DNA of 64,000 bases. Source: Tropicibacter sp. Alg240-R139. Its GTDB lineage: Bacteria; Pseudomonadota; Alphaproteobacteria; Rhodobacterales; Rhodobacteraceae. Positions 40,309 to 64,000 of the stretch are shown here, in pieces. The stretch is from NCBI RefSeq assembly GCF_900537075.1, contig NZ_UNRA01000002.1:1013228-1077227 (forward strand). Direction: 5' to 3'. Position 1 is the stretch's first letter. Each line of letters starts with the position of its first letter. The position numbers and the translations under genes were made by a program. The notes beneath the pieces are model-generated. The model was not told the DNA's origin. It saw only the letters and a list, made by a program, of their open reading frames with translations, and made no database searches.

Positions 40309-41259
40309 TTAGGAGATTTTTCCGCGTTGGAGCATGGGCGTAACGCCATAGGTCGCGCGGTAGACACGGCTGAAATGACCAGGGCTTTCGAACCCGCACG
40401 CAAAGGCCACTTCGGTCACAGATGCTTCTGTTTGGATCAAAAGGTTGCGCGCACGATCAAGGCGCATTTCCATGAAATATTTCTTGGGAGAGGCGTTCAG
40501 ATACTTGCCAAAGAGCCGTTCCAACTGGCGCGTCGAGATGCCCACGTTCTCCGCGATGACGGTGGGCGAGATCGGGTCCGAAATCTGATCCTGCATGATC
40601 TGGATCGCCTTGGTCAAATGCGCATTGCGCATTCCGTTGCGGGACTGCAGCGAGACTTTTTGTTCGGCTGTGGCGTGGCGAACGGCATTGTAAACCATTT
40701 GATCGGCAACAGCGACGGACAGGTCCTGACCATGATCGCGTTCGATCAGATGCAGGATCAGGTCGGCGGTGGCTGTTCCACCGGACGCGGTCATGTATTT
40801 CTCATCCGCGACAAAGACGCTGCGTACCAGGTTCACCTCTGGGAAGGCCTCCATGAAGCTGTCGTGATACTCCCAATGGATCGCGGCCTGCATGTCATCC
40901 AGAAACCCCGCTTCGGCCAGAACCCAGGCGCCCGAGCAAAGCGCGCCGATGGCCGTGCCCCGTACCCGCTCGCGACGCAATGCGGCCAACAGCGGTTTGG
41001 TGACGTGATCGCGCATGTGGATTCCCGACAAGACAAACAGCTGGTCACAGCGGGGCAGGGCATCGAATCCCGAATGCACCAGTGTCACGGATTCGTTCGA
41101 ACAGGTCGCGGTTTCACTATTCTCGGATGCGAACGACCAGTGATACAGCGGCTCGCCGCTGACCAGATTGGCGATGCGCAGCGGCTCGACCGCGCAGGAA
41201 AACGCGAGGTGTGAGAATTCTTCGACGAGAAGAAAGACAAAGTGCTGTGTCTTGGACAT
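40309..41259 (-). CDS. GlxA/GbdR-like AraC-family regulator
   Basis: 316 residues from ATG 41259 (open to 41385 without a good start). DJ-1-like N-terminus with a retained Cys in GALCSGAWVLAEAGFLDD, then AIHWEYHDSFMEAFP. C-terminal AraC HTH SPTVIAENVGISTRQLERLFGKYL and VAFACGFESPGHFSRVYRATYGVTP. It resembles GbdR-type sensors of glycine betaine and related amines. It is divergent from the gntR-dapA-aldh-oxidase operon of a probable betaine/proline island, which supports that role; the ligand is inference. Confidence 0.83.
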   Translation of the reverse strand: MSKTQHFVFLLVEEFSHLAFSCAVEPLRIANLVSGEPLYHWSFASENSETATCSNESVTLVHSGFDALPRCDQLFVLSGIHMRDHVTKPLLAALRRERVRGTAIGALCSGAWVLAEAGFLDDMQAAIHWEYHDSFMEAFPEVNLVRSVFVADEKYMTASGGTATADLILHLIERDHGQDLSVAVADQMVYNAVRHATAEQKVSLQSRNGMRNAHLTKAIQIMQDQISDPISPTVIAENVGISTRQLERLFGKYLNASPKKYFMEMRLDRARNLLIQTEASVTEVAFACGFESPGHFSRVYRATYGVTPMLQRGKIS

Positions 41260-41398
41260 GGCGTGACCCAATTCAAGGTTACCGGGGCGTGGCGTCTGCT
41301 TGCCCTGCGACGCAGTTCTCAGGCTAAGCCAAGATTCGTCTGCGCGGCAAGATAATGCGAGGTACGCCACATATTTTTTGCACACAACAATTTTTTAC

Positions 41399-41470: not shown

Positions 41471-42181
41471 GTGAAGGACGCCGCGAAAAATCGCAAAACC
41501 GAACTTTATGACTGGCTAAAAACCGCGATCATGACCTTGGATCTGCGGCCCGGCGCCGATCTGGATGAAAGCCGCCTGTCGGATGAATTTCAATTGTCAC
41601 GCACACCGTTGCGCGAGGTGCTGCGCCAGCTTGCGGGTGAGGGGTATGTCGATCTGCGCGAAAACCGCGGCGCGCGGGTCAGCGAGATGTCCCACATGAC
41701 TCTGCGCGACTTCTTTCTGGCCGCGCCGATGATCTATGGCGCGGTGCTGCAACTTGCGGCGCAGAACGCGCGGCCCGAGCAGATTGACGATCTGAAAGCC
41801 GCGCAAGACGTGTTCAAATCAACGCTGCGCACGGGTTCCGGTGCGGATCGCGCCATGGCCAACAACCGTTTTCACGAGGTGACCGGAGAGATGGCCGACA
41901 ACATCTATTTGTTGCCCTCGTTCCAACGTCTGCTGATCGACCACGCGCGCATTTCTATGACCTTCTATCGCCCACAAGACGCGCAGATGGTCGAAAACGT
42001 GTCCGAGGCAAGCGCTCAACACGACGCGATCATCGCGGCCATAGAGGCACGGGATGACGTGGCAGCGGCGCAACTGGCCATCGACCATTGGAACCTGTCC
42101 CGAGACCAGATTGAACTGTTCGTCATGCCCGCAGGGTTGGACGTGCAACTGGGCTCAGTCGCACGAAACACATCAGCCTGA
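41471..42181 (+). CDS. GntR-family (FCD) transcriptional regulator
   Basis: 236 residues from GTG 41471, the best start because the wHTH follows (KTELYDWLKTAIMTLDLRPGADL, LSDEFQLSRTPLREVLRQLAGEGYV) and AGGAG lies upstream. The helical FCD ligand domain ends with AQHDAIIAAIEARDDVAAAQLAIDHW. First gene of the catabolic operon and eight bases before the DapA-family gene. Confidence 0.88.
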   Translation: MKDAAKNRKTELYDWLKTAIMTLDLRPGADLDESRLSDEFQLSRTPLREVLRQLAGEGYVDLRENRGARVSEMSHMTLRDFFLAAPMIYGAVLQLAAQNARPEQIDDLKAAQDVFKSTLRTGSGADRAMANNRFHEVTGEMADNIYLLPSFQRLLIDHARISMTFYRPQDAQMVENVSEASAQHDAIIAAIEARDDVAAAQLAIDHWNLSRDQIELFVMPAGLDVQLGSVARNTSA

Positions 42182-42189
42182 GGACTATC

Positions 42190-43107
42190 ATGACACCCCT
42201 GTTTGAATTCAAAGGGATCTACACGCCTGTTGTGACCCCTTATCGCGCCAATGGTAGCGTCAATTGGGACGGCCTGTCAGACGTGATCGAATATCTCGCT
42301 GAAAACGGCGTGCATGGCCTAATTTCGGGCGGCTCGACCGGCGAAAACTATGCCCAAACCGTGAAAGAGCGTCTGGACCTGGCAAAGTTCACGCACCAGC
42401 AGCTCAAAGGACGTCTGCCGCTGGTGGTGGGGACCGGAGCCATGTTGACGTCGGATTCGATTGCTCTGGCGACCGGCGCGCGTGAGATTGGGGCTGACTC
42501 GATCCTGCTCGCCAGCCCGCCATATTCGGTGCCAACGGATCGCGAAAACGCGCTGAACGCGCTTGCCATCGACAAAGCCGCTGATCTGCCGATCATGCTC
42601 TACAACTATCCCCACCGCACCGGCACGATGATGGGAGAGGAGTTTCTTGACCGTGTCGGCCGGTCGCGCAATTTCAGCGGGATCAAGGAAAGCTCAGGCG
42701 ACATCAACCGGGTTCATCTGTTGGCGCGGGACTATCCGCACATCCAGCTGGGTTGTGGCATGGACGATCAGGCGCTTGAATTCTTTGCCTGGGGCGCGCC
42801 GTTCTGGGTCTGTGGCGGATCGAACTTTCTGCCGCGCGAGCATGTGGCGCTCTACAACGCTTGTGTCATCGAAGGGAATTTTGCCAAGGGCCGCCGGATC
42901 ATGTCGGCGATGATGCCGTTGATGCGGGTGCTGGAGCAGGGCGGAAAGTTCATCCAGACCATCAAACATGGCGTCACCATGAACGGGATCGAGGCCAGCG
43001 TTGTGCGCCCGCCGCTCAAAGGGCTCAACAAGGACGACAAACGCGCATTGGAACAGGTCACGCGCGTGTTGAAACAGAAAATCGCAGATATTGAGGCGGA
43101 GGGTTAA
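42190..43107 (+). CDS. DapA/NanA-family lyase or deaminase
   Basis: 305 residues. Schiff-base Lys166 in FSGIKESSGD, Tyr138 in MLYNYPHRTG and the GGSTGENYAQ loop define the dihydrodipicolinate-synthase superfamily. In hydroxyproline catabolism a member of this family deaminates the pyrroline intermediate. With hpbD in the facing operon that is a reasonable candidate, but the same fold serves many 2-oxo-acid aldolases. Three bases separate it from the ALDH gene. Confidence 0.85.
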   Translation: MTPLFEFKGIYTPVVTPYRANGSVNWDGLSDVIEYLAENGVHGLISGGSTGENYAQTVKERLDLAKFTHQQLKGRLPLVVGTGAMLTSDSIALATGAREIGADSILLASPPYSVPTDRENALNALAIDKAADLPIMLYNYPHRTGTMMGEEFLDRVGRSRNFSGIKESSGDINRVHLLARDYPHIQLGCGMDDQALEFFAWGAPFWVCGGSNFLPREHVALYNACVIEGNFAKGRRIMSAMMPLMRVLEQGGKFIQTIKHGVTMNGIEASVVRPPLKGLNKDDKRALEQVTRVLKQKIADIEAEG

Positions 43108-43110
43108 GAC

Positions 43111-44607
43111 ATGTCACTGCTCACTCAGGACGAATACAAATCCATCGCTGCCAATCTGGATATGCCAACCGGAGCCTTCATTGACGGCGCCTATCGCCCG
43201 GCGCTTTCAGGCAAGACGTTTGAGACATCGAACCCGGCCACCGGGGAGAAAATCGTCGATATTGCGGCTTGCGGTGCCGAAGACGTTGACTTTGCTGTCG
43301 AAAAGGCACGTGAGGCATTTGACGACGGCCGATGGTCGCGGATGCACCCATCTGATCGCAAGGACGTGCTGATACGCCTGTGCAAACTGATGACCCGAAA
43401 TGCGCGCGAACTGGCGGTGATGGAAAGCATCGACAGCGGCAAGACGATTTATGATTGCGAAACCGTCGACGTGCCCGAGACTATTCACTGCATCAAATGG
43501 CACGCCGAGGTGATCGACAAAATCTATGATCAGGTCTCGCCCGCCAGCGACGACCACATCGCCATGGTCGTGCGCGAACCGATTGGCGTTGTAGGGTTGG
43601 TGCTACCGTGGAACTTTCCGCTGCTGATGCTGGGGTGGAAGATCGGCCCAGCTTTGGCCGCAGGCTGCTCGGTCGTGGTAAAGCCCGCGGCTGAGACCAC
43701 ACTGACCGCCTTGCGTCTGGCTGAACTGGCGATGGAGGCAGGCCTGCCGCGCGGCGTTCTGAACATCGCACCGGGCGGCGGCGCGGAGGTGGGCGAGCCG
43801 ATTGGCCGTCACATGGACATCGATATGGTGTCCTTCACCGGCTCGACCGTGACAGGCAAACGGTTCCTTGGCTATTCGGGAGAAAGCAACGCCAAGGAGG
43901 TGGTGCTGGAAATGGGCGGTAAGAACCCGGCTATCGTGATGGATGACACCGAAAACCTAGATCGTGTTGCCGCGCATGTGGTCAACGGTGCATTCTGGAA
44001 CATGGGCGAGAACTGCTCGGCCTCTTCACGCCTGATCGTGCACAAGGACGTAAAGGCCGAACTGCTGGAGCGCATCGCCCATCACGCCAAACAGTGGAAC
44101 ATCGGCGATCCGTTGGACCCGGAAACCCGCATGGGTGCCTTGGTTAGCGAAGAGCACTACACCAAGGTTTGTGGCTACTTGGACCAAGCCAAAAACGTCT
44201 TGATCGGCGGCAAGGCCAAGGATGGATTTGTCGAGGCCACGGTTGTTGAAGTGCCTGATAACGACGCTGTTCTGGCCCGCGAAGAGATATTTGGTCCGGT
44301 TCTGTCAGTGATCGAAGTGTCCAGCTTTGACGAGGCGATCAACATCGCCAATGACACCGACTATGGCCTATGTGCCTCGATCTTTACCGCCAACGCCAAA
44401 CGGGCCATCCGCGGCGCGCGCGCGATCCGGGCGGGGACCGTGACGGTCAACAGCTTTGGCGAGGGTGACATCACCACGCCGTTTGGCGGTTACAAGCAGT
44501 CCGGCTTTGGCGGTCGCGACAATTCGGTTCATGCGCATGACCAGTACACGCAGCTGAAAACCATCTGGATCGATCTGGCCGACGACGAAGACGAGGCGGT
44601 GGATTGA
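43111..44607 (+). CDS. Aldehyde dehydrogenase, PuuC-like
   Basis: 498 residues. Asn in LPWNFPLL, Glu in LEMGGKNPA and catalytic Cys in NMGENCSASSRL are intact. It looks like gamma-glutamyl-aminobutyraldehyde or semialdehyde dehydrogenases. With a DapA-family enzyme and an oxidase it could oxidise 2-oxoglutarate semialdehyde, the end of hydroxyproline breakdown; this is inference. Overlaps the oxidase gene by four bases. Confidence 0.88.
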   Translation: MSLLTQDEYKSIAANLDMPTGAFIDGAYRPALSGKTFETSNPATGEKIVDIAACGAEDVDFAVEKAREAFDDGRWSRMHPSDRKDVLIRLCKLMTRNARELAVMESIDSGKTIYDCETVDVPETIHCIKWHAEVIDKIYDQVSPASDDHIAMVVREPIGVVGLVLPWNFPLLMLGWKIGPALAAGCSVVVKPAAETTLTALRLAELAMEAGLPRGVLNIAPGGGAEVGEPIGRHMDIDMVSFTGSTVTGKRFLGYSGESNAKEVVLEMGGKNPAIVMDDTENLDRVAAHVVNGAFWNMGENCSASSRLIVHKDVKAELLERIAHHAKQWNIGDPLDPETRMGALVSEEHYTKVCGYLDQAKNVLIGGKAKDGFVEATVVEVPDNDAVLAREEIFGPVLSVIEVSSFDEAINIANDTDYGLCASIFTANAKRAIRGARAIRAGTVTVNSFGEGDITTPFGGYKQSGFGGRDNSVHAHDQYTQLKTIWIDLADDEDEAVD

Positions 44608-45944
44608 CCAACTACACCGCCAAAAGACTGCCCCGGCAAACGGGCCCGGCAGGATGGAATGCCATCTTGCCGGAACAACCCCCGCTGCCGGTACTAGAAA
44701 AGGATATGACCGTCGACATCACGGTGATCGGTGGCGGATTTACCGGGCTGTCCACTGCGCGGCGGCTGCATCAGCTTGACCCCAACCTGAAGATCGCATT
44801 GGTCGAGGCCGGGCGGTTTGCAGACAGCTCGGCAGGGCGCAATTCGGGTTTCATGATCGACCTGCCCCATGATCTGTCTTCTGACAACTACGCGGGTGAT
44901 GGGCCAGAGGTGGACAGAGCAGAGATTGCTTTGAACAGGCAGGCCATTGGATTTGCCAAAGAGGTCGCCGCAGACTGCCAAATGCCGGATGAGATTTTTG
45001 ATCCGTGCGGCAAATACAATGCGGCTGCGACACGGGCAGGCGACAGGCACAATCGGGAGTATGCCGACCATCTGCGGCAATTGGGGGAGCCTTGCGAGTT
45101 TCTCGACAAAGCGCAGATCGAAGAGGTCACCGGCAGTCCGCACTATACTTCGGGCGTGTTTTGTCCCGGCACGGTGATGCTGCAGCCGGCGGGCTATATT
45201 CGCGGGCTCTCGCAGCTGCTGGCGCGGCAGATCGCAGTCTTTGAGAACACACCCGCAACCGGGTTTGAACGGAAGGGCAACGGATGGCAGGTGAGCACCC
45301 CCAAGGGCAGGATCGCCACCGGTACCGTCGTGCTGGCCAATAACGGGCATCTAGAGAGTTTCGGGTTTTTTCAACGCCAGCTGATGCACATTTGCCTCTA
45401 CGCCTCGATAACCGAGCAGCTGACCGGCGAGCAGGTCCAATCACTTGGTGGCCAGCCCAGATGGGGTGTCACGCCTGCTGATCCCATGGGCACCTCGGTT
45501 CGGCGTATTTCAGGCAGCTATGGCGACCGCATCCTGATCCGAACCTGCGCCAGCTTTCATCCTACCATCGAAACCAGCCCCATGCGCGTGCGCAACGCGG
45601 GCTGGGTGCATGACCGCAAGTTCACTGAACGTTTCCCGCACCTGCCAAATGTGGGGATGGAACATCGGTGGGCCGGGATGCTGTGCCTCAGCCGCAATGG
45701 GTCCGCCGCTTTTGGCGAGTTGGATCAGGGCGTCTACTCTGCGTGCTGCCAGAACGGATTGGGCACAGCGCGGGGAACCCTGCAAGGCATGGGTATTGCC
45801 GAGCTGATTGTGCAGGGGAAATCAGACATTTCCGATCATTTTCTGGCTCAGCCCGAGTTGCCGAAACTGCCGCCCGAACCTTTGGCTGCATTGGGCGCCA
45901 ATACCTATCTGATGTGGAAGGAATGGCGCTCGGGCAAGGAGTAA
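44604..45944 (+). CDS. FAD-dependent DAO-family oxidoreductase (PuuB/OrdL-like)
   Basis: 446 residues with a TTG start overlapping the ALDH stop (TTGA). Rossmann FAD motif DITVIGGGFTGLSTARRL, then the SSAGRNSGFMI loop typical of gamma-glutamylputrescine-oxidase-like proteins, and a C-terminal FAD loop GLGTARGTLQGMGIAELI. Members oxidise secondary amines or amino acids; here a D-hydroxyproline- or N-methyl-amino-acid-like substrate is plausible. Converges on the SDR genes five bases away. Confidence 0.87.
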   Translation: MTNYTAKRLPRQTGPAGWNAILPEQPPLPVLEKDMTVDITVIGGGFTGLSTARRLHQLDPNLKIALVEAGRFADSSAGRNSGFMIDLPHDLSSDNYAGDGPEVDRAEIALNRQAIGFAKEVAADCQMPDEIFDPCGKYNAAATRAGDRHNREYADHLRQLGEPCEFLDKAQIEEVTGSPHYTSGVFCPGTVMLQPAGYIRGLSQLLARQIAVFENTPATGFERKGNGWQVSTPKGRIATGTVVLANNGHLESFGFFQRQLMHICLYASITEQLTGEQVQSLGGQPRWGVTPADPMGTSVRRISGSYGDRILIRTCASFHPTIETSPMRVRNAGWVHDRKFTERFPHLPNVGMEHRWAGMLCLSRNGSAAFGELDQGVYSACCQNGLGTARGTLQGMGIAELIVQGKSDISDHFLAQPELPKLPPEPLAALGANTYLMWKEWRSGKE

Positions 45945-45949
45945 GGGCG

Positions 45950-46684
45950 TCAGGGCAGGCTGAGCTGTGTCATACGGCCGCCGTCCACGGTGTAAACCTG
46001 ACCGGTGATAAAGCCTGCATCTGCCGAGGCAAGGAAAGCAACGAGGGCGGCGATCTCTTCGGGTTTGCCAGTGCGGGCAATTGGATGGACACCTGCTATA
46101 TCGCGGCGAAAGGCTTGGGGATCAGGCATGTTGTCGATGAAATTCTCGTTCAGTTCGGTGTCGATCCAGCCTGGCGCGACGGCATTGCAGCGGATGCATT
46201 CGGGCCCGTGATCCACGGCGACCGCACGCGTCATCCCGTGCAGCCCAGCTTTAGAGGCGCAATAGGCTGCGTGGCCGGGGTTGCTCCCCAGCCCCTCGAT
46301 GGAACCAATATTGACGATATTGCCCTTGGTGTCGCGCAGGTGAGGCAGGGCGGCCTGGATCATCAGGAACGGCGCGGTGAGGTTGATGGTGAGCGTCCTG
46401 TTCCAATCAGCAAGGCTCATGTCCTCGACGCGGGCCTCTTGCATCATGCCCGCGTTGTTCACAAGCATGTCGAGACGGCCCGTTTGAGCGATCATGTCAG
46501 AGATCACATTACCTGGCGCACTTGGGTCCACGAAATCAGCAGTGACATGTTCAAATTCGGGGTCAATGCCGCGTTGTGCTGTGAAGACACGCGCGCCTTC
46601 GTCACGCAGCCGTCGGGCGATGGCTTGCCCGATGCCGCTGCGTCCGCCAGTGACCAAAGCGACCATGTTTTTGAACCGCTTCAT
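45950..46684 (-). CDS. SDR-family oxidoreductase 1
   Basis: 244 residues. Cofactor motif TGGRSGIGQAIARRL, NNAG block, Tyr-Lys in YCASKAGLHGM, and the C-terminal ITGQVYTVDGG. Classical SDR acting on a hydroxy or keto group. Last of the mttB-hpbD-SDR-SDR operon, coupled to SDR 2 by ATGA. Confidence 0.9.
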   Translation of the reverse strand: MKRFKNMVALVTGGRSGIGQAIARRLRDEGARVFTAQRGIDPEFEHVTADFVDPSAPGNVISDMIAQTGRLDMLVNNAGMMQEARVEDMSLADWNRTLTINLTAPFLMIQAALPHLRDTKGNIVNIGSIEGLGSNPGHAAYCASKAGLHGMTRAVAVDHGPECIRCNAVAPGWIDTELNENFIDNMPDPQAFRRDIAGVHPIARTGKPEEIAALVAFLASADAGFITGQVYTVDGGRMTQLSLP

Positions 46685-47415
46685 GAGACCGGCTTACCCC
46701 CGTTCACTTCGATCAAGGCACCACACACGTAGCGCGCGGCGTCTGAGGCCAGAAACAGCACCACATCCGCGATGTCTTCGGGCTCGGCGATCCGGCCCAG
46801 AGGTACCGATTGGCCCAGTTCCGCGACGGCTGTGTCAGGATCAAAGCCACGCTTTTCGAACCCACTGCGCAGCATGGGTGTGTTCACCTCATTCGGGCAG
46901 ACCGCGTTGATGCGGATGCCTTGAGGCGCATGATCCATGCCCATGCATTGGGTCAGCGAGGCAATCGCCGCCTTGGTCATGCAATAGAGCGCGTGGTTCG
47001 GCCCCGGCGCTGTGGCACCCCAGCAAGAGGCTGTGTTAACGATTGCACCGCCGCCGGTTTCCGCCATCAGCGGGATCGCGGCGCGGCAGATGCGAAAGGG
47101 CGCCTCGACATTGACCCCCATCGACAACTGCCAATCCGCGTCCGAGGCCTCGGTCACCGGTCCGCGCGTGATGACGCCCGCGTTGTTGATTACGATGTTC
47201 AGACCGCCAAGCGCTGCTATGGCGGCGGCAGGTAATCCGTCTGCATACTTCGCATCCAGCAGATCGCCGGGCAGATGAGCGTCAGCTTCGAAATGATCTG
47301 TCACACGATCAGCCACCGCGACCTGCGCCCCGGCGGCGCGCAAGCGGTTGACGATTGCGGTTCCGATGCCGCCTGCGCCGCCGGTAACGAGGGCGCGTTT
47401 TCCCTGAAACTCCAT
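46681..47415 (-). CDS. SDR-family oxidoreductase 2
   Basis: 244 residues from ATG 47415, just downstream of AGGAGG; the longer open frame would run into hpbD. Cofactor motif TGGAGGIGTAIVNRL, NNAG block, YCMTKAAIASL with Tyr and Lys, and CGALIEVNGG. The two SDRs are paralogues in tandem. Sixteen bases separate it from hpbD. Confidence 0.9.
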   Translation of the reverse strand: MEFQGKRALVTGGAGGIGTAIVNRLRAAGAQVAVADRVTDHFEADAHLPGDLLDAKYADGLPAAAIAALGGLNIVINNAGVITRGPVTEASDADWQLSMGVNVEAPFRICRAAIPLMAETGGGAIVNTASCWGATAPGPNHALYCMTKAAIASLTQCMGMDHAPQGIRINAVCPNEVNTPMLRSGFEKRGFDPDTAVAELGQSVPLGRIAEPEDIADVVLFLASDAARYVCGALIEVNGGKPVS

Positions 47416-47431
47416 GCTCGACCTCCTGCTG

Positions 47432-48535
47432 TCAGAATGCTGCGACCGGCGACCCGAACAGGGTTTCATCCGGTGTGACCCCTAAACCTGGACCGCGTGG
47501 AACCGAGATGTGCCCACCTTCGACGCGGATACCATTCTCGGGATCATAGTGCCCTTCAATATATGGCGCGGCCAACCAAACTCCTTCGAGCAGATCGGGA
47601 CGGACTGTGGCACCGATATGAGTACAGGCAGCTGCAATGATGTCGCCGCCCCAATTGTCATCGCAGGTGTGCGGCAGGTTGCGTGCCTCACAAATATCGC
47701 GGAAGGCGCGCATCGGGTGCAGACCGCCGATGCGGGTGACCTTCATCCCGAACCCATCGACCAATCCGGTTCCGGCGGCGGTGATGACGGTATTCAGCGA
47801 CGTGCTGCTTTCATCCATGTAAAGGCCATGGGTGATCTGAGGACGGATCTTTTGAAGATCCTCAATTGTGTTGCAGGGCTGTTCCATGATGAAGGGAATG
47901 TCTGGACACTCCCGGCTGACCCGCAGCGCGTCGCGGGTGGTCCAGCCTCGGTTGCCATCGACGGCCAGGCGCATGCCCGATCCTTTGACGACCTCCCAGA
48001 CCCTGCGGATGACCTCGATATCAATCTCGACGGGGCGTCCGCCAACCTTGATCTGTAGGCGGGGGTATCCCTCGGCCATTTTTTCTGCCGCCAGCTGCGC
48101 AATGTCGTCTGGCGTTCCCACACCGGTGGCATAGTAGGATGGCACGCGAGACGTCGCTGCCCCCCCCAACAACTCGGACACGCTGATGCCAAAGTGCTTG
48201 CCCAGAAGATCGTGCGCCGCGATGTCGATGGCCGCCTTGGCGTAATTGTGCCCGGTCAGCAACCCGTCCATCGCGCGGTGTAATGTGAGCGGTGCCACCT
48301 CTACCCCGATCAAATCGGGGGTCATCTGGATCAGCGCCGCTTGCGCACCGGCGGCATGCGCTTCGGCATATGTGGGTCCAACGGGACAGGTTTCGCCCCA
48401 ACCGATCAGACCGGTGTCCGAGACAAGTTTTACCAGCGTGGTGTCCAATGCCCAAACCTGCGCCTTGGCCATCGTGTAGGGGCCGTTTCGAACCGGCAGG
48501 TCGTGTTGATAGATGTATATTTCGGCGATCTTCAA
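47432..48535 (-). CDS. hpbD: 4-hydroxyproline betaine 2-epimerase (enolase superfamily)
   Basis: 367 residues, TTG start with GAGGG upstream. A mandelate-racemase-subgroup protein: acid/base Lys163 in RLQIKVGGR and Lys265 in FGMKVTR, metal ligands Asp193 (VDGNR), Glu218 (EQPCNT) and Asp241 (MDES). Its full sequence resembles, as I remember it, Pelagibaca bermudensis HpbD, which epimerises trans-4-hydroxy-L-proline betaine and proline betaine. That pathway then N-demethylates and degrades the product. Here the gene follows an MttB-family methyltransferase instead of Rieske demethylase genes. Confidence 0.85.
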
Positions 48536-48555
48536 GGGGTGCCCTCAAGAAAATA

Positions 48556-48583
48556 AGCCCGCCCTAGAAAGGGGCGAGCCAGT
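48556..48583 (-). terminator. Hairpin between mttB and hpbD
   Basis: AGCCCGCCC (48556-48564) pairs with GGGCGAGCC (48572-48580) with two wobble pairs and a seven-base loop. On the minus-strand transcript it is followed by UAUUUUC. It is a weak terminator or processing site that could lower expression of the genes after mttB. Confidence 0.5.
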
Positions 48584-48596
48584 AGGGGGGAGTGAA

Positions 48597-50153
48597 TTAG
48601 TAGTGTTGGTTCAGCTCGTCGGCTGCCGGGATCTCGCGCTCGCGCCGGGCGATGTAGTCCAGCAGCTCCTCGTTCTTGGCGATGTCGAGGGTTGGTTCCT
48701 GGTATTCCGACAACAGCTTGCGGGCGTGGTTCAGAGCGCGCTCAGTGATTTCGACGCTACCTTCGGCCGCCCATTGCTCGATCGAGTTGTTGTCGAACAT
48801 GTCGGGCATGAAGAACGCCTCTTGGAAGTTTTCCTGCGTGTGGGGGTGGCCGAGATAGTGCCCACCCGGCCCGACGTCCGGCACTGCGGACAGAGCTTGA
48901 TCGAAGTCGCCCCATTTCGGGCCTTCGGCCATGCGATAGGCCATCGCGCATTGTTCTGCGTCGACGATGAATTTGGCCGTAGAACAATGCATCCCGGCCT
49001 CGTTCCAGCCGGCGCTGTGCCAGATGTAGTTCGCCCCGGCGTGCATCACGGCCTGCAAGGTTGTCGCGCTTTCGTAACCGGCTTGCGCGTCGAATGTCTT
49101 GGCCCCACCAAGCGTGTTCGAGGTGCGCCAAGGGACGCCGTAGTAACGGGCCATCTGTCCGATCATGAAGTTCATCAGGCTGATTTCGGGCGTGCCGGCC
49201 ATCGGCGCACCGGATTTCATCGAAACGGTCGACAGATAGTGACCGTAAATCGCAGGCGCACCTTTGCGGATCACCTGCGTGTAGGCCAATGCGCTCAGCG
49301 CCTCGGCGTTCAATTGCGCGACGGTTGCGGGAACGCTTGCGGGCGTATTGGCGCCACCCAGAACAAAGGGCGAGCACAGCACCGGTTGATTACGGCGACA
49401 GAAGGCGCGCATCGCGCCCAACATCGTCTCGTCCCACACCAGCGGTGAATTGCCGTTGCAGTTGCCGGTGGTCACGGGGTGCGTTTCCAGGAATTCCTCG
49501 CCGAACAGGATGGCGCACATGTCCAGCACGTCTTCGGCGTTCTTGGGCGAGGTGGTCATGCCCATGAACGTTTTGTCGGAATGTTTCATTGATGAATAGG
49601 TGATGCGCAGGTGGCGCTGGCTGATTGGGTGATCGTAGGGTTCCACGATGTGGTGAGCTGAGGAATGCAGCGCGGGCATCATGTGGCTCAGCTTATGGAA
49701 CATTGCCAGATCATCGAGCGTCGGGTTGCGCCGCACGTCATCCAGATCACGCAGGAAGGGCGCGCCTGTCATGGGGACAAAGATCGAATGTCGCCCACCA
49801 AGGCGCACATTCTTTTTCGGATCGCGGGCGTGATACGTGAAGTCGGATGGGATCGTGGCAATCAGTTCGCGGACCAATCCGCGATCCAGAAACACAAGCT
49901 CTCCTTCGACCTTGGCACCGGCATTTTTCCAGTCTTCCAACGCAATAGGGTCGCGGAACTGGACCCCCACGTTTTCCAGGATGTGCATCGAAGCGCTGTC
50001 GATGCGCTCGACCTGACTGCCGTCCATTACCTCACACAGCGCAATAGTCGCGGTCAGGCCGGGTAACATGTCGACTTTCGGGGCTGTGCGCAGGGCACGG
50101 CGGGCTTGCCTGCCACCCGAACGGGTGCGCGGTGCGGTGGCGAGTTGTGTCAT
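48597..50153 (-). CDS. MttB-superfamily methyltransferase, non-pyrrolysine
   Basis: 518 residues from ATG 50153; the frame is open to 50294 but the family starts here. Trimethylamine-methyltransferase fold: FLDRGLVRELIATIP, GRHSIFVPMTG, RHLRITYSSMKHSDKTFMGM, TGNCNGNSPLVWDETMLGAM, and a long TIM-barrel C-terminal part. There is no in-frame amber codon, so it does not use pyrrolysine. Such members demethylate glycine betaine, proline betaine, carnitine or similar quaternary amines onto a corrinoid protein. Proximity to hpbD points to (hydroxy)proline betaine. No corrinoid protein or reactivase is in the window. Confidence 0.85.
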   Translation of the reverse strand: MTQLATAPRTRSGGRQARRALRTAPKVDMLPGLTATIALCEVMDGSQVERIDSASMHILENVGVQFRDPIALEDWKNAGAKVEGELVFLDRGLVRELIATIPSDFTYHARDPKKNVRLGGRHSIFVPMTGAPFLRDLDDVRRNPTLDDLAMFHKLSHMMPALHSSAHHIVEPYDHPISQRHLRITYSSMKHSDKTFMGMTTSPKNAEDVLDMCAILFGEEFLETHPVTTGNCNGNSPLVWDETMLGAMRAFCRRNQPVLCSPFVLGGANTPASVPATVAQLNAEALSALAYTQVIRKGAPAIYGHYLSTVSMKSGAPMAGTPEISLMNFMIGQMARYYGVPWRTSNTLGGAKTFDAQAGYESATTLQAVMHAGANYIWHSAGWNEAGMHCSTAKFIVDAEQCAMAYRMAEGPKWGDFDQALSAVPDVGPGGHYLGHPHTQENFQEAFFMPDMFDNNSIEQWAAEGSVEITERALNHARKLLSEYQEPTLDIAKNEELLDYIARREREIPAADELNQHY

Positions 50154-61839: not shown

Positions 61840-62574
61840 ATGACGAAAAACAAGAGCGCTCTTGTCATTAGTGCCCACGCTGCCGATTTCGTCTGGCGCT
61901 GCGGCGGCGCCATCGCCCTGCATCAGGAACGGGGCTATGACGTGACCATTGCCTGCTTGAGCTATGGCGAGCGCGGAGAATCTGCCAAGCTCTGGAAACA
62001 GGATGGTTGCACGCTTGATCAGGTGAAAACCGCGCGTAAAGCCGAGGCCGAAGGGGCTGCTATGGCTCTTGGCGTGCACGATATCGTTTTCTTTGATGCG
62101 GGTGATTACCCGCTCGAATTGAAACGCGAACAGAAGTTCGAAGTTGTGGACCTGATCCGTAAGGTGCAGCCCGACTTTATGTTGAGCCATTCAACATACG
62201 ACCCCTACAACACTGATCATATGTACGCGACCAGCATCGCTATGGAGTGTCGGATGATTGCCCAGGCCTGGGGTCACAATCCCGGCGACAAGGTTCTGGG
62301 CGCGCCGCAGCTCTATTTGTTCGAACCACACCAGACCGAACAGATGGGCTGGAAGCCCGACACGTTCCTCGACATCACGCCGGTCTGGGACAAGAAGCGT
62401 GCTGCAATCGAATGTATGCAGGGGCAAGAGCACTTGTGGGACTACTACACCAATGTCGCCCGCAACCGTGCCAACCACTTCCGCCGCAACTCTGGCGGCA
62501 TGGCAGGGGGGCGAAAATCCGAATACGCCGAAGGGTTCCAATCGGTTTACCCTCGCACCGTGGATGAACTCTGA
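61840..62574 (+). CDS. PIG-L-type 4-oxalomesaconate hydratase (GalB-like)
   Basis: 244 residues. PIG-L/LmbE metal site partly changed: the usual HPDD reads [13 protein letters not shown], with later His in [13 protein letters not shown]. Pseudomonas GalB, a PIG-L-fold 4-oxalomesaconate hydratase, has this altered AHxxDFxWRxGG motif, and the next two genes encode the aldolase and tautomerase of the same pathway. Together these strongly favour hydration of 4-oxalomesaconate to 4-carboxy-4-hydroxy-2-oxoadipate over deacetylation. Stop and next start overlap (TGATG). Confidence 0.85.
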
Positions 62575-63245
62575 TGGGTGTCGTCGTTCAAAATATCGAA
62601 AGGCCAGACCCGGCTGTGGTTGCCGAACTTGCCGAATGCGGCGTCGCGACCGTGCACGAAGCACAAGGACGCAAGGGGCTGCTCGGCTCAAACATGCGGC
62701 CGATCTATCCGGGCGCGCGGATCGCGGCCTCGGCTGTCACCATTTCCGCGCCACCGGGTGACAATTGGATGCTGCATGTGGCCATCGAACAGCTGCACCG
62801 GGATGACATCCTGGTGCTTGCGCCGACCTCTCCTTGCGAAGACGGGTATTTTGGTGACCTTTTGGCGACATCTGCCAGGGCCCGTGGGTGTGCGGGTCTG
62901 ATCATCGATGCCGGTGTGCGCGATGTGCGCGATTTGACAGAGATGCAGTTTCCCGTCTGGTCCAAGGCCGTATTTGCCCAAGGGACCGTCAAGGAAACGT
63001 TGGGGTCGGTCAATGTGCCGGTGGTGTGCGCGGGCGCGTTGATCAACCCCGGCGACATAATCGTTGCCGACGATGACGGCGTCTGCGTGGTGCAGCGAGA
63101 CGAAGCTTTCGATGTGCTGAAAAAGGCGCAGGCACGCGAGACCAATGAGGCAGAGAAACGGGCGCGTCTGACCCAGGGAGAGCTGGGGCTGGATATCTAT
63201 GACATGCGGGCCCGCCTGGCAGAGAAGGGCCTCAGATATGTCTGA
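62574..63245 (+). CDS. 4-carboxy-4-hydroxy-2-oxoadipate aldolase (LigK/GalC family)
   Basis: 223 residues of the RraA-like class II pyruvate aldolase family. Blocks [72 protein letters not shown] (metal-pyruvate site with Arg and Asp) and [21 protein letters not shown]. Cleaves the hydroxyoxoadipate to pyruvate and oxaloacetate. Overlaps the tautomerase gene by eight bases. Confidence 0.92.
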
Positions 63246-64000
63246 CACAGGATGGGCTGGCGCGGTCAGATGTATGTGGATGCGGGGTGGCACGTCCAAA
63301 GGCGGGTTCTTCCTAGGCCAGGATTTGCCTGACGAACGGGCGGCGCGTGACCGGTTCCTGCTTCGAGTTATGGGTTCGCCTGACGCCCGCCAGATCGATG
63401 GCATCGGCGGTGGGGATCCGCTGACGTCCAAAGTCGCCGTCGTTCGCAAATCGACCCGTCGCGGAGTGGATGTCGACTATTTGTTTTTGCAGGTCTTTGT
63501 TGATCAGGCGCTTGTGACGGATGCGCAGAACTGCGGGAATATCCTGGCTGGCGTCGGTGCCTTTGCGATCGAGCGGGGGCTGGTTTCGCCAAACGACGGT
63601 ATCACGCCAGTCACCGTTTTCATGGAAAACACCCAGCAGATCGCAACCCTTAACGTACAGACACCAGCCGGCCATGTTTGTTATGCGGGCGATGCACGTA
63701 TCGATGGTGTTCCCGGAACGGCCGCGCCCGTACCGATCACATTTCGGGACACCGCCGGTTCCAGCTGTGGGGCCCTGCTGCCCACGGGTCGCGCGGTGGA
63801 TGAGATCGACGGCATTCCAGCCACGCTGATCGACAATGGAATGCCGGTCGTGGTTCTACGCGCCGATGATTTGAACGTTGATGGCGGCGCAAATCGCGAA
63901 AGTCTTGATCGCGATCAAGCCCTCAAGGTGCGATTAGAGAGCATTCGTCTGCAAGCTGGCCCGTTGATGAATCTTGGCGACGTAAAAGAAAAATCGGTGC
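63238..64000 (+). CDS. PrpF-family 4-oxalomesaconate tautomerase (partial)
   Basis: The frame starts with ATG 63238 inside the end of the aldolase gene and stays open to the right edge, giving about 254 residues. PrpF blocks: [44 protein letters not shown] and [16 protein letters not shown]. PrpF-fold enzymes isomerise aconitate-like compounds; GalD/LigU converts keto and enol or double-bond isomers of 4-oxalomesaconate. The context supports that role. The C-terminal third lies outside the window. Confidence 0.88.

Follow-up and report, generated by a model that had tools for sequence, protein, structure and literature searches.

An MttB-superfamily methyltransferase in a predicted (hydroxy)proline betaine unit of Rhodobacteraceae, with a conserved MttB-DAO-ALDH-DapA core and HpbD as an addition

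We analysed a 64,000-nucleotide stretch of Tropicibacter sp. Alg240-R139 (contig NZ_UNRA01000002.1, positions 1,013,228 to 1,077,227; the window), in which a gene for an MttB-superfamily methyltransferase stands beside one for an HpbD-like (hydroxy)proline betaine 2-epimerase and faces a run of DapA-family, aldehyde dehydrogenase (ALDH) and DAO-type amine oxidase genes. A preliminary description of this DNA had proposed a corrinoid-dependent route for hydroxyproline betaine. Gene content, conservation, co-occurrence and homologues of the corrinoid partners were all observed directly. MttB, DAO, ALDH and DapA make up the conserved core of the unit, to which HpbD is added. It is probable, in our judgement, that MttB is the first demethylase, with a (hydroxy)proline-type betaine as donor of one methyl group and a shared MtgC-like corrinoid protein as its acceptor; DAO, DapA and ALDH would carry out the rest, and HpbD would act as an add-on.

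The partners of MttB were identified in a reciprocal survey of 120 genomes of the family, representing 119 genera, with orthologue cut-offs at E-values of 1e-200 or better for MttB, 1e-80 for DapA and 1e-100 for HpbD. Orthologues were found in 30, 32 and 9 genomes, respectively. DapA was present in all 30 genomes with MttB versus 2 of the 90 others (p = 3e-26 in a Fisher test, which treats genomes as independent), and the co-occurrence held where the two genes are not adjacent (genomes G055 and G020). Analysis of 29 MttB neighbourhoods, omitting genome G078 with its MttB at a contig end, revealed ALDH and DapA genes in 27 each, DAO in 26, GntR in 24 and HpbD in 6. At loci L177, L181, L183, L184, L189, L190 and L191, DapA, ALDH, MttB and DAO stand in one run that lacks HpbD. 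The reciprocal search thus ruled out an obligate partnership of MttB and HpbD, as no more than 8 of the 30 genomes with MttB also have HpbD; the substrate is therefore not settled by HpbD. Two loci, L213 and L227, place MttB with DAO-ALDH-DapA on plasmids that typing assigns to the conjugative class; their hosts are Leisingera methylohalidivorans and Phaeobacter inhibens M633.

Loci containing HpbD were surveyed as the best 80 of 173 relatives from named genomes, a set that leans to close relatives and whose members share descent and hence are not independent. Neighbouring genes were scored with profiles built for this analysis, using thresholds set by hand. An MttB orthologue (at least 60% identity) was present in 57 of the 80 loci and lay directly upstream of hpbD on the same strand in 39, with gaps of -1 to 121 bp. 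With 11 MttB genes across this 4.66-Mb genome, such a neighbourhood is not due to chance. The full set of DapA, ALDH and DAO was present in 53 loci, 50 of which also contained MttB. A plasmid locus of Rhodobacter (Cereibacter) sphaeroides (L211) has the gene order of the window: MttB, HpbD and two genes for short-chain dehydrogenases/reductases (SDRs), facing DAO-ALDH-DapA-GntR. The conserved mttB-hpbD pair that the preliminary description had suggested looking for is therefore real, but the constant partners of MttB are DapA, ALDH and DAO. Among the literature matches listed, none names a link between MttB and HpbD in its title or the start of its abstract, and we cannot say whether the link has been reported before.

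The window MttB spans all 500 positions of PF06253 with no internal stop, in agreement with its earlier description as a homologue without an amber codon. It scores 273.3 bits against the trimethylamine methyltransferase equivalog TIGR02369, under the curated cut-off of 525, and is 46% identical to 4yyc and 38% identical to MtgB (2qne). By sequence, it is a putative betaine:corrinoid methyltransferase. In a quickly built tree, with support from the Shimodaira-Hasegawa-like approximate likelihood ratio test (SH-aLRT) only, a few duplicate rows and several paralogues on long branches, the MttB proteins of these units formed a single clade (88 rows, SH-aLRT 100, stem 1.63), and the other ten MttB paralogues of this genome fell outside it. 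Presence of HpbD in the locus switched at least eight times on the starred branches of this tree. The MttB superfamily has a broad range of substrates, and several pfam06253 proteins are expected for different compounds (available part of PMC12478193); most units, moreover, lack HpbD. Both points would fit an MttB that acts on another quaternary amine, such as glycine betaine, carnitine or another betaine, within a general osmolyte island. We consider this unlikely, given that MttB and DapA occur together in 30 of 30 genomes even when unlinked, and that the MttB clade is separate from C1:1140020, the paralogue nearest to Sinorhizobium meliloti 4yyc (60% identity). That paralogue would be the more plausible glycine betaine enzyme. 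The 11 MttB-superfamily genes of this genome exceed the 'up to seven' pfam06253 proteins suggested for different compounds in Ruegeria pomeroyi (PMC12478193, in the part available). Several of the paralogues (L115, L117, L118 and L121) adjoin 800-residue DMGDH-like genes, unlike the window MttB.

The preliminary description had tied its proposal to a corrinoid protein and a reactivase. Elsewhere in the genome, Pfam matches reveal genes for homologues of both and for a pterin-binding methyltransferase, so that corrinoid partners are not missing. Of the three PF02310 matches, two fall in reading frames some 740 residues long; the third belongs to a protein of 232 residues, C1:1588745, in which both B12 domains are present. 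The single RACo protein of the genome is encoded at C1:1215658. The MtgD-like gene is C1:1412276, a Pterin_bind protein whose score of 403 clears the NCBIfam cut-off for methyltetrahydrofolate:corrinoid methyltransferase, which is 259; C2:849547 was considered as MtgD and rejected on its FolP-like context, judged by look. MetH was not detected, since the sole other Pterin_bind match in the genome has, by look, a FolP-like context. All MttB genomes but one (29 of 30) have an MtgC-like orthologue; the exception, G068, is 76% complete.

The window HpbD shares 69.8% identity with the product annotated as hpbD in Paracoccus pantotrophus and retains K163, K265 and W320, which we take to be the catalytic residues of HpbD; among solved chains, the best by sequence are 4e8g, 2pmq and 4h2h. 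This close match and the three residues make it a strong candidate for a 4-hydroxyproline betaine 2-epimerase. Both SDRs travel with HpbD: at least two SDR genes were present in all six HpbD-containing MttB neighbourhoods of the family sample versus 5 of the 23 that lack HpbD. Among the 80 HpbD loci, at least two co-directed SDR genes lay near HpbD in 55 of 57 loci with MttB versus 6 of 23 others; L074 falls outside this count, as another HpbD copy was used there. Three HpbD-like enolase paralogues of 33-37% identity are grouped at positions 6180-16012 of L124 (G000:C7:107000-126000), in a cluster shared with a quinone-oxidoreductase-like gene, an 817-residue DMGDH-like enzyme and a Rieske gene; this is perhaps another betaine or cyclic amine cluster.

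The facing gene run was said to be suited to the remainder of (hydroxy)proline breakdown, and its families agree. As given in the available part of PMC4113996, cis-4-hydroxyproline (cHyp) oxidase, pyrroline-4-hydroxy-2-carboxylate (Pyr4H2C) deaminase and alpha-ketoglutarate semialdehyde (KGSA) dehydrogenase, which end hydroxyproline breakdown, belong to the DAAO, DHDPS and ALDH superfamilies, and genes of these three superfamilies stand together at the window locus (Pfam). By analogy with that set, the DapA-family enzyme may act as the deaminase, the ALDH may be the semialdehyde dehydrogenase, and DAO a D-hydroxyproline or N-methyl-hydroxyproline oxidase. The solved relatives of the DapA-family enzyme (best 60 of 115) are mostly named dihydrodipicolinate synthase and none is named Pyr4H2C deaminase; DAO has no solved relative at an E-value of 1e-8. 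The top NCBIfam scores were to PuuC for ALDH and to AmaA for DAO, both under the cut-off. These scores could be taken to mean that the unit degrades a betaine with a carbon skeleton other than that of hydroxyproline and that HpbD has a different substrate here. Such a reading is decidedly improbable in view of the residues retained by HpbD, its 70% identity to annotated hpbD, and the match of the trio to the published hydroxyproline set (PMC4113996, as above).

In the scheme we propose, reactions, substrate, stereochemistry and regulation are all predictions. MttB would remove one N-methyl group from a (hydroxy)proline-type betaine and load it onto the Co(I) corrinoid that the shared MtgC-like protein carries, and the RamA-like reactivase would keep the cobalt reduced. 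The MtgD-like enzyme would then hand the methyl group to tetrahydrofolate, from which it would enter one-carbon oxidation or the synthesis of methionine. DAO would oxidise the remaining tertiary amine, unless DAO or HpbA demethylates it first; the DapA-family enzyme would then open the ring and ALDH would oxidise the product to alpha-ketoglutarate. HpbD and the two SDRs may form an add-on for betaine of the opposite C2 configuration, which they would convert to the stereoisomer that the unit can use. The second N-methyl group may leave by the action of DAO, by that of HpbA or as methylamine upon ring opening, and the 'oxygen-independent' demethylation of the preliminary description would hold, at most, for the first demethylation. 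In a fully oxygenase-free version, MttB would act by way of B12, DAO would oxidise the N-methyl amino acid at its ring and leave the methyl group in place, and DapA would open the ring with release of methylamine rather than ammonia. This version, though distinctly unlikely, would explain the absence of a recognised second demethylase beside most MttB-DAO-DapA-ALDH units and the lack of association between HpbA and MttB. A homologue of HpbA (67%) lies at C2:414098, unlinked to the window unit, and there the genome of the window keeps an HpbA-reductase pair. In G020 (L176), HpbA, a pyrroline-5-carboxylate reductase-like reductase and the MttB of the unit stand in a row. An HpbA-like match that carries two in-frame TAG codons was found at G102:C152:1862-3904.

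The Hpb pathway of Paracoccus and Pelagibaca reportedly comprises HpbD, a Rieske demethylase and HpbA, in work attributed to Zhao 2013 and Kumar 2014, the latter of which reportedly also deals with R. sphaeroides. The window resembles that pathway in having an HpbD orthologue with a demethylase gene directly upstream of hpbD, and differs from it in that MttB replaces the Rieske oxygenase and its reductase, HpbA is unlinked and two SDRs are added. In P. pantotrophus, Rieske and reductase genes immediately precede the annotated hpbD; no Rieske alpha subunit or reductase gene was found beside hpbD in the window. Two or more of the DapA, ALDH and DAO genes occur at 56 of the HpbD loci, and 52 of these have MttB; three of the remaining four contain a Rieske-type reductase (L074, L107 and L108), and L080 ends 458 bp upstream of hpbD. 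Across all 80 loci, such a reductase accompanies 5 of the 23 that lack MttB (L055, L074, L075, L107 and L108) and 2 of the 57 that have MttB, namely L052 and L102. In L074, from Paracoccus onubensis, Rieske and reductase genes precede one HpbD copy, followed by SDR-SDR-DAO-ALDH. The seeds of the Rieske profile included some probable antisense frames from the genome under study (L017, L018, L021 and L023), and the profile built with them still recovered that genome's Rieske genes in the stretches scanned.

It is also conceivable that the first demethylation is carried out by a Rieske oxygenase encoded elsewhere, with a minor or different role for MttB. The genome has 12 Ring_hydroxyl_A (Rieske) genes, one of which, C1:929469, encodes a protein 63% identical to the Rieske protein near some Ruegeria hpbD loci (L060), and a Rieske gene is present in 13 of the 57 HpbD loci with MttB. 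However, the best of the 12 is about 34% identical to the GbcA-like Rieske protein beside P. pantotrophus hpbD, C1:929469 lies, by look, in an unrelated context, and profile searches found no Rieske gene around MttB in the 29 neighbourhoods drawn from the family sample, of which some are cut by contig ends. We therefore hold this explanation to be very improbable. Nevertheless, because of C1:929469, the objection named in the preliminary description, Rieske demethylases elsewhere in the genome, keeps some weight.

Several observations weigh against the proposed role of MttB. HpbD is rare, even if enriched with MttB (8 of 30 MttB genomes versus 1 of 90 others, p = 5e-5), and it lies directly beside MttB in 6 of the 30; conversely, the trio is present without an MttB orthologue in G039 (L201) and G092 (L202), where no demethylase was found. 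The MtgC- and RamA-like proteins fall below the NCBIfam cut-offs for MtgC and RamA, and Pfam gives no match at 1e-5 for the 321-residue gene that occupies the metF2 position next to the MtgD-like gene. MtgC-like proteins are near universal, in 111 of the 120 family genomes, so that the corrinoid route is shown to be possible and not shown to be used. None of the NCBIfam equivalogs shown is over its cut-off for DapA, ALDH or DAO. HpbA was rejected as a linked second demethylase: matches of at least 57% identity occur in 16 of 30 MttB genomes versus 51 of 90 others, or 19 of 30 versus 54 of 90 when all 73 genomes are taken. The exchange of MttB for a Rieske oxygenase is seen, but in few loci and not strictly. 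Of the HpbD copies in L074, the closer one (76% identity) lies upstream without the Rieske pair, which stands before the copy at 67%; in the halomonad loci L107 and L108, the reductase alone was found, with no Rieske alpha subunit in the stretch scanned and a trio 41-53% identical. The Rieske genes at MttB-bearing HpbD loci and the 63% match of C1:929469 count here too; 12 of those 13 genes differ in kind from the GbcA-like one. Finally, no ProVWX-type transporter gene lies beside the unit in the window (profile table of neighbours), and the search for a shared operator came up empty. A common GntR operator upstream of both operons was rejected, as at most 4 of 73 loci share any nine-base word within the locus. 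Of 92 MttB regions, 3 contain the pattern TNGTNNACNA, considered as an operator, where shuffles give 3.5; for GntR the count is 13 of 74 regions, where shuffles give 4.1.

The window locus consists of two convergent gene runs, one on the + strand (41471-45944) and one on the - strand (45950-50153), the latter transcribed in the order MttB, HpbD, SDR 2, SDR 1 (Table 1). Open reading frames, start and stop codons and families all match those first described (Pfam scan). MttB does precede hpbD, as claimed; that the genes form one operon is suggested by their spacing, with 61 bp between MttB and HpbD. The AraC/GlxA-type regulator is an occasional neighbour outside the pathway proper, present in 11 of the 29 MttB neighbourhoods. 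Further along the window, at 61840-63999, are genes that by look are of PIG-L, aldolase and PrpF type, presumably as in protocatechuate or gallate breakdown.

Table 1. Genes at and beside the methyltransferase-epimerase locus, in window positions.
Feature	Position	Strand	Basis and remarks
AraC/GlxA-type regulator	40309-41385	-	family name from annotated relatives and by look
GntR/FCD-family regulator	41471-42181	+	Pfam GntR and FCD; GTG start picked from relatives
DapA/DHDPS-family enzyme	42190-43107	+	Pfam DHDPS, 177 bits
Aldehyde dehydrogenase (ALDH)	43111-44607	+	Pfam Aldedh, 528 bits
DAO-type FAD amine oxidase	44604-45944	+	Pfam DAO, 142 bits; TTG start
SDR oxidoreductase 1	45950-46684	-	Pfam
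SDR oxidoreductase 2	46681-47415	-	Pfam; end overlaps start of SDR 1 by 4 bp
HpbD-like (hydroxy)proline betaine 2-epimerase, enolase superfamily	47432-48535	-	TTG start
Non-pyrrolysine MttB-superfamily methyltransferase	48597-50153	-	Pfam MTTB, 706.6 bits

Aerobic B12-dependent demethylation and an MttB-type enzyme for proline betaine have both been published, as the Mtg system of R. pomeroyi and MtpB of Eubacterium limosum. In R. pomeroyi, glycine betaine demethylation and methionine synthesis draw on the same MtgC and MtgD (PMC12478193, here and below in the part available). The present system is like the MtgBCD/E demethylase of R. pomeroyi, with its split methionine synthase, in combining an aerobic marine alphaproteobacterium, an MttB-superfamily donor enzyme, a shared corrinoid protein, a pterin-binding methyltransferase and RamA with no MetH (PMC12478193). 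Unlike Mtg, the window MttB sits with HpbD, DapA, ALDH and DAO and has (hydroxy)proline betaine as its predicted substrate; MtgB1 and MtgB2 (SPO2108 and SPO2134) were set against it by description, not by sequence. MtpB of E. limosum is a proline betaine:corrinoid methyltransferase (available parts of PMC8604678 and PMC12478193). It too is an MttB-superfamily protein that lacks pyrrolysine, acts as a demethylase on a proline-type betaine and supplies a shared corrinoid protein; unlike the host of the window, E. limosum is an acetogenic anaerobe, and MtpB was likewise compared by description, not by sequence. The R. sphaeroides plasmid locus, identical in gene order, differs from the window in having ProVWX and a GlxA-type regulator directly beside the unit; ProVWX genes adjoin the unit in P. 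inhibens M633 as well. Stachydrine shortens the lag phase of P. inhibens (PMC11306105, in the part available). P. inhibens M633, a strain other than the one in that work, carries a plasmid MttB-DAO-ALDH-DapA unit that is HpbD-less in the stretch seen.

The window locus can be read as an aerobic module with a predicted corrinoid-dependent demethylase, within a putative (hydroxy)proline betaine unit in which HpbD is an optional epimerase. Proline betaines are algal and plant osmolytes. If the proposed role of MttB is true, the presence of a corrinoid methyltransferase where related clusters have a Rieske oxygenase would be a functional replacement within one pathway. If the route is also spread among aerobic roseobacters, mttB of this kind would be a marker gene for B12-dependent demethylation of proline betaine, and another osmolyte would be tied to cobalamin supply and methionine synthesis at sea.

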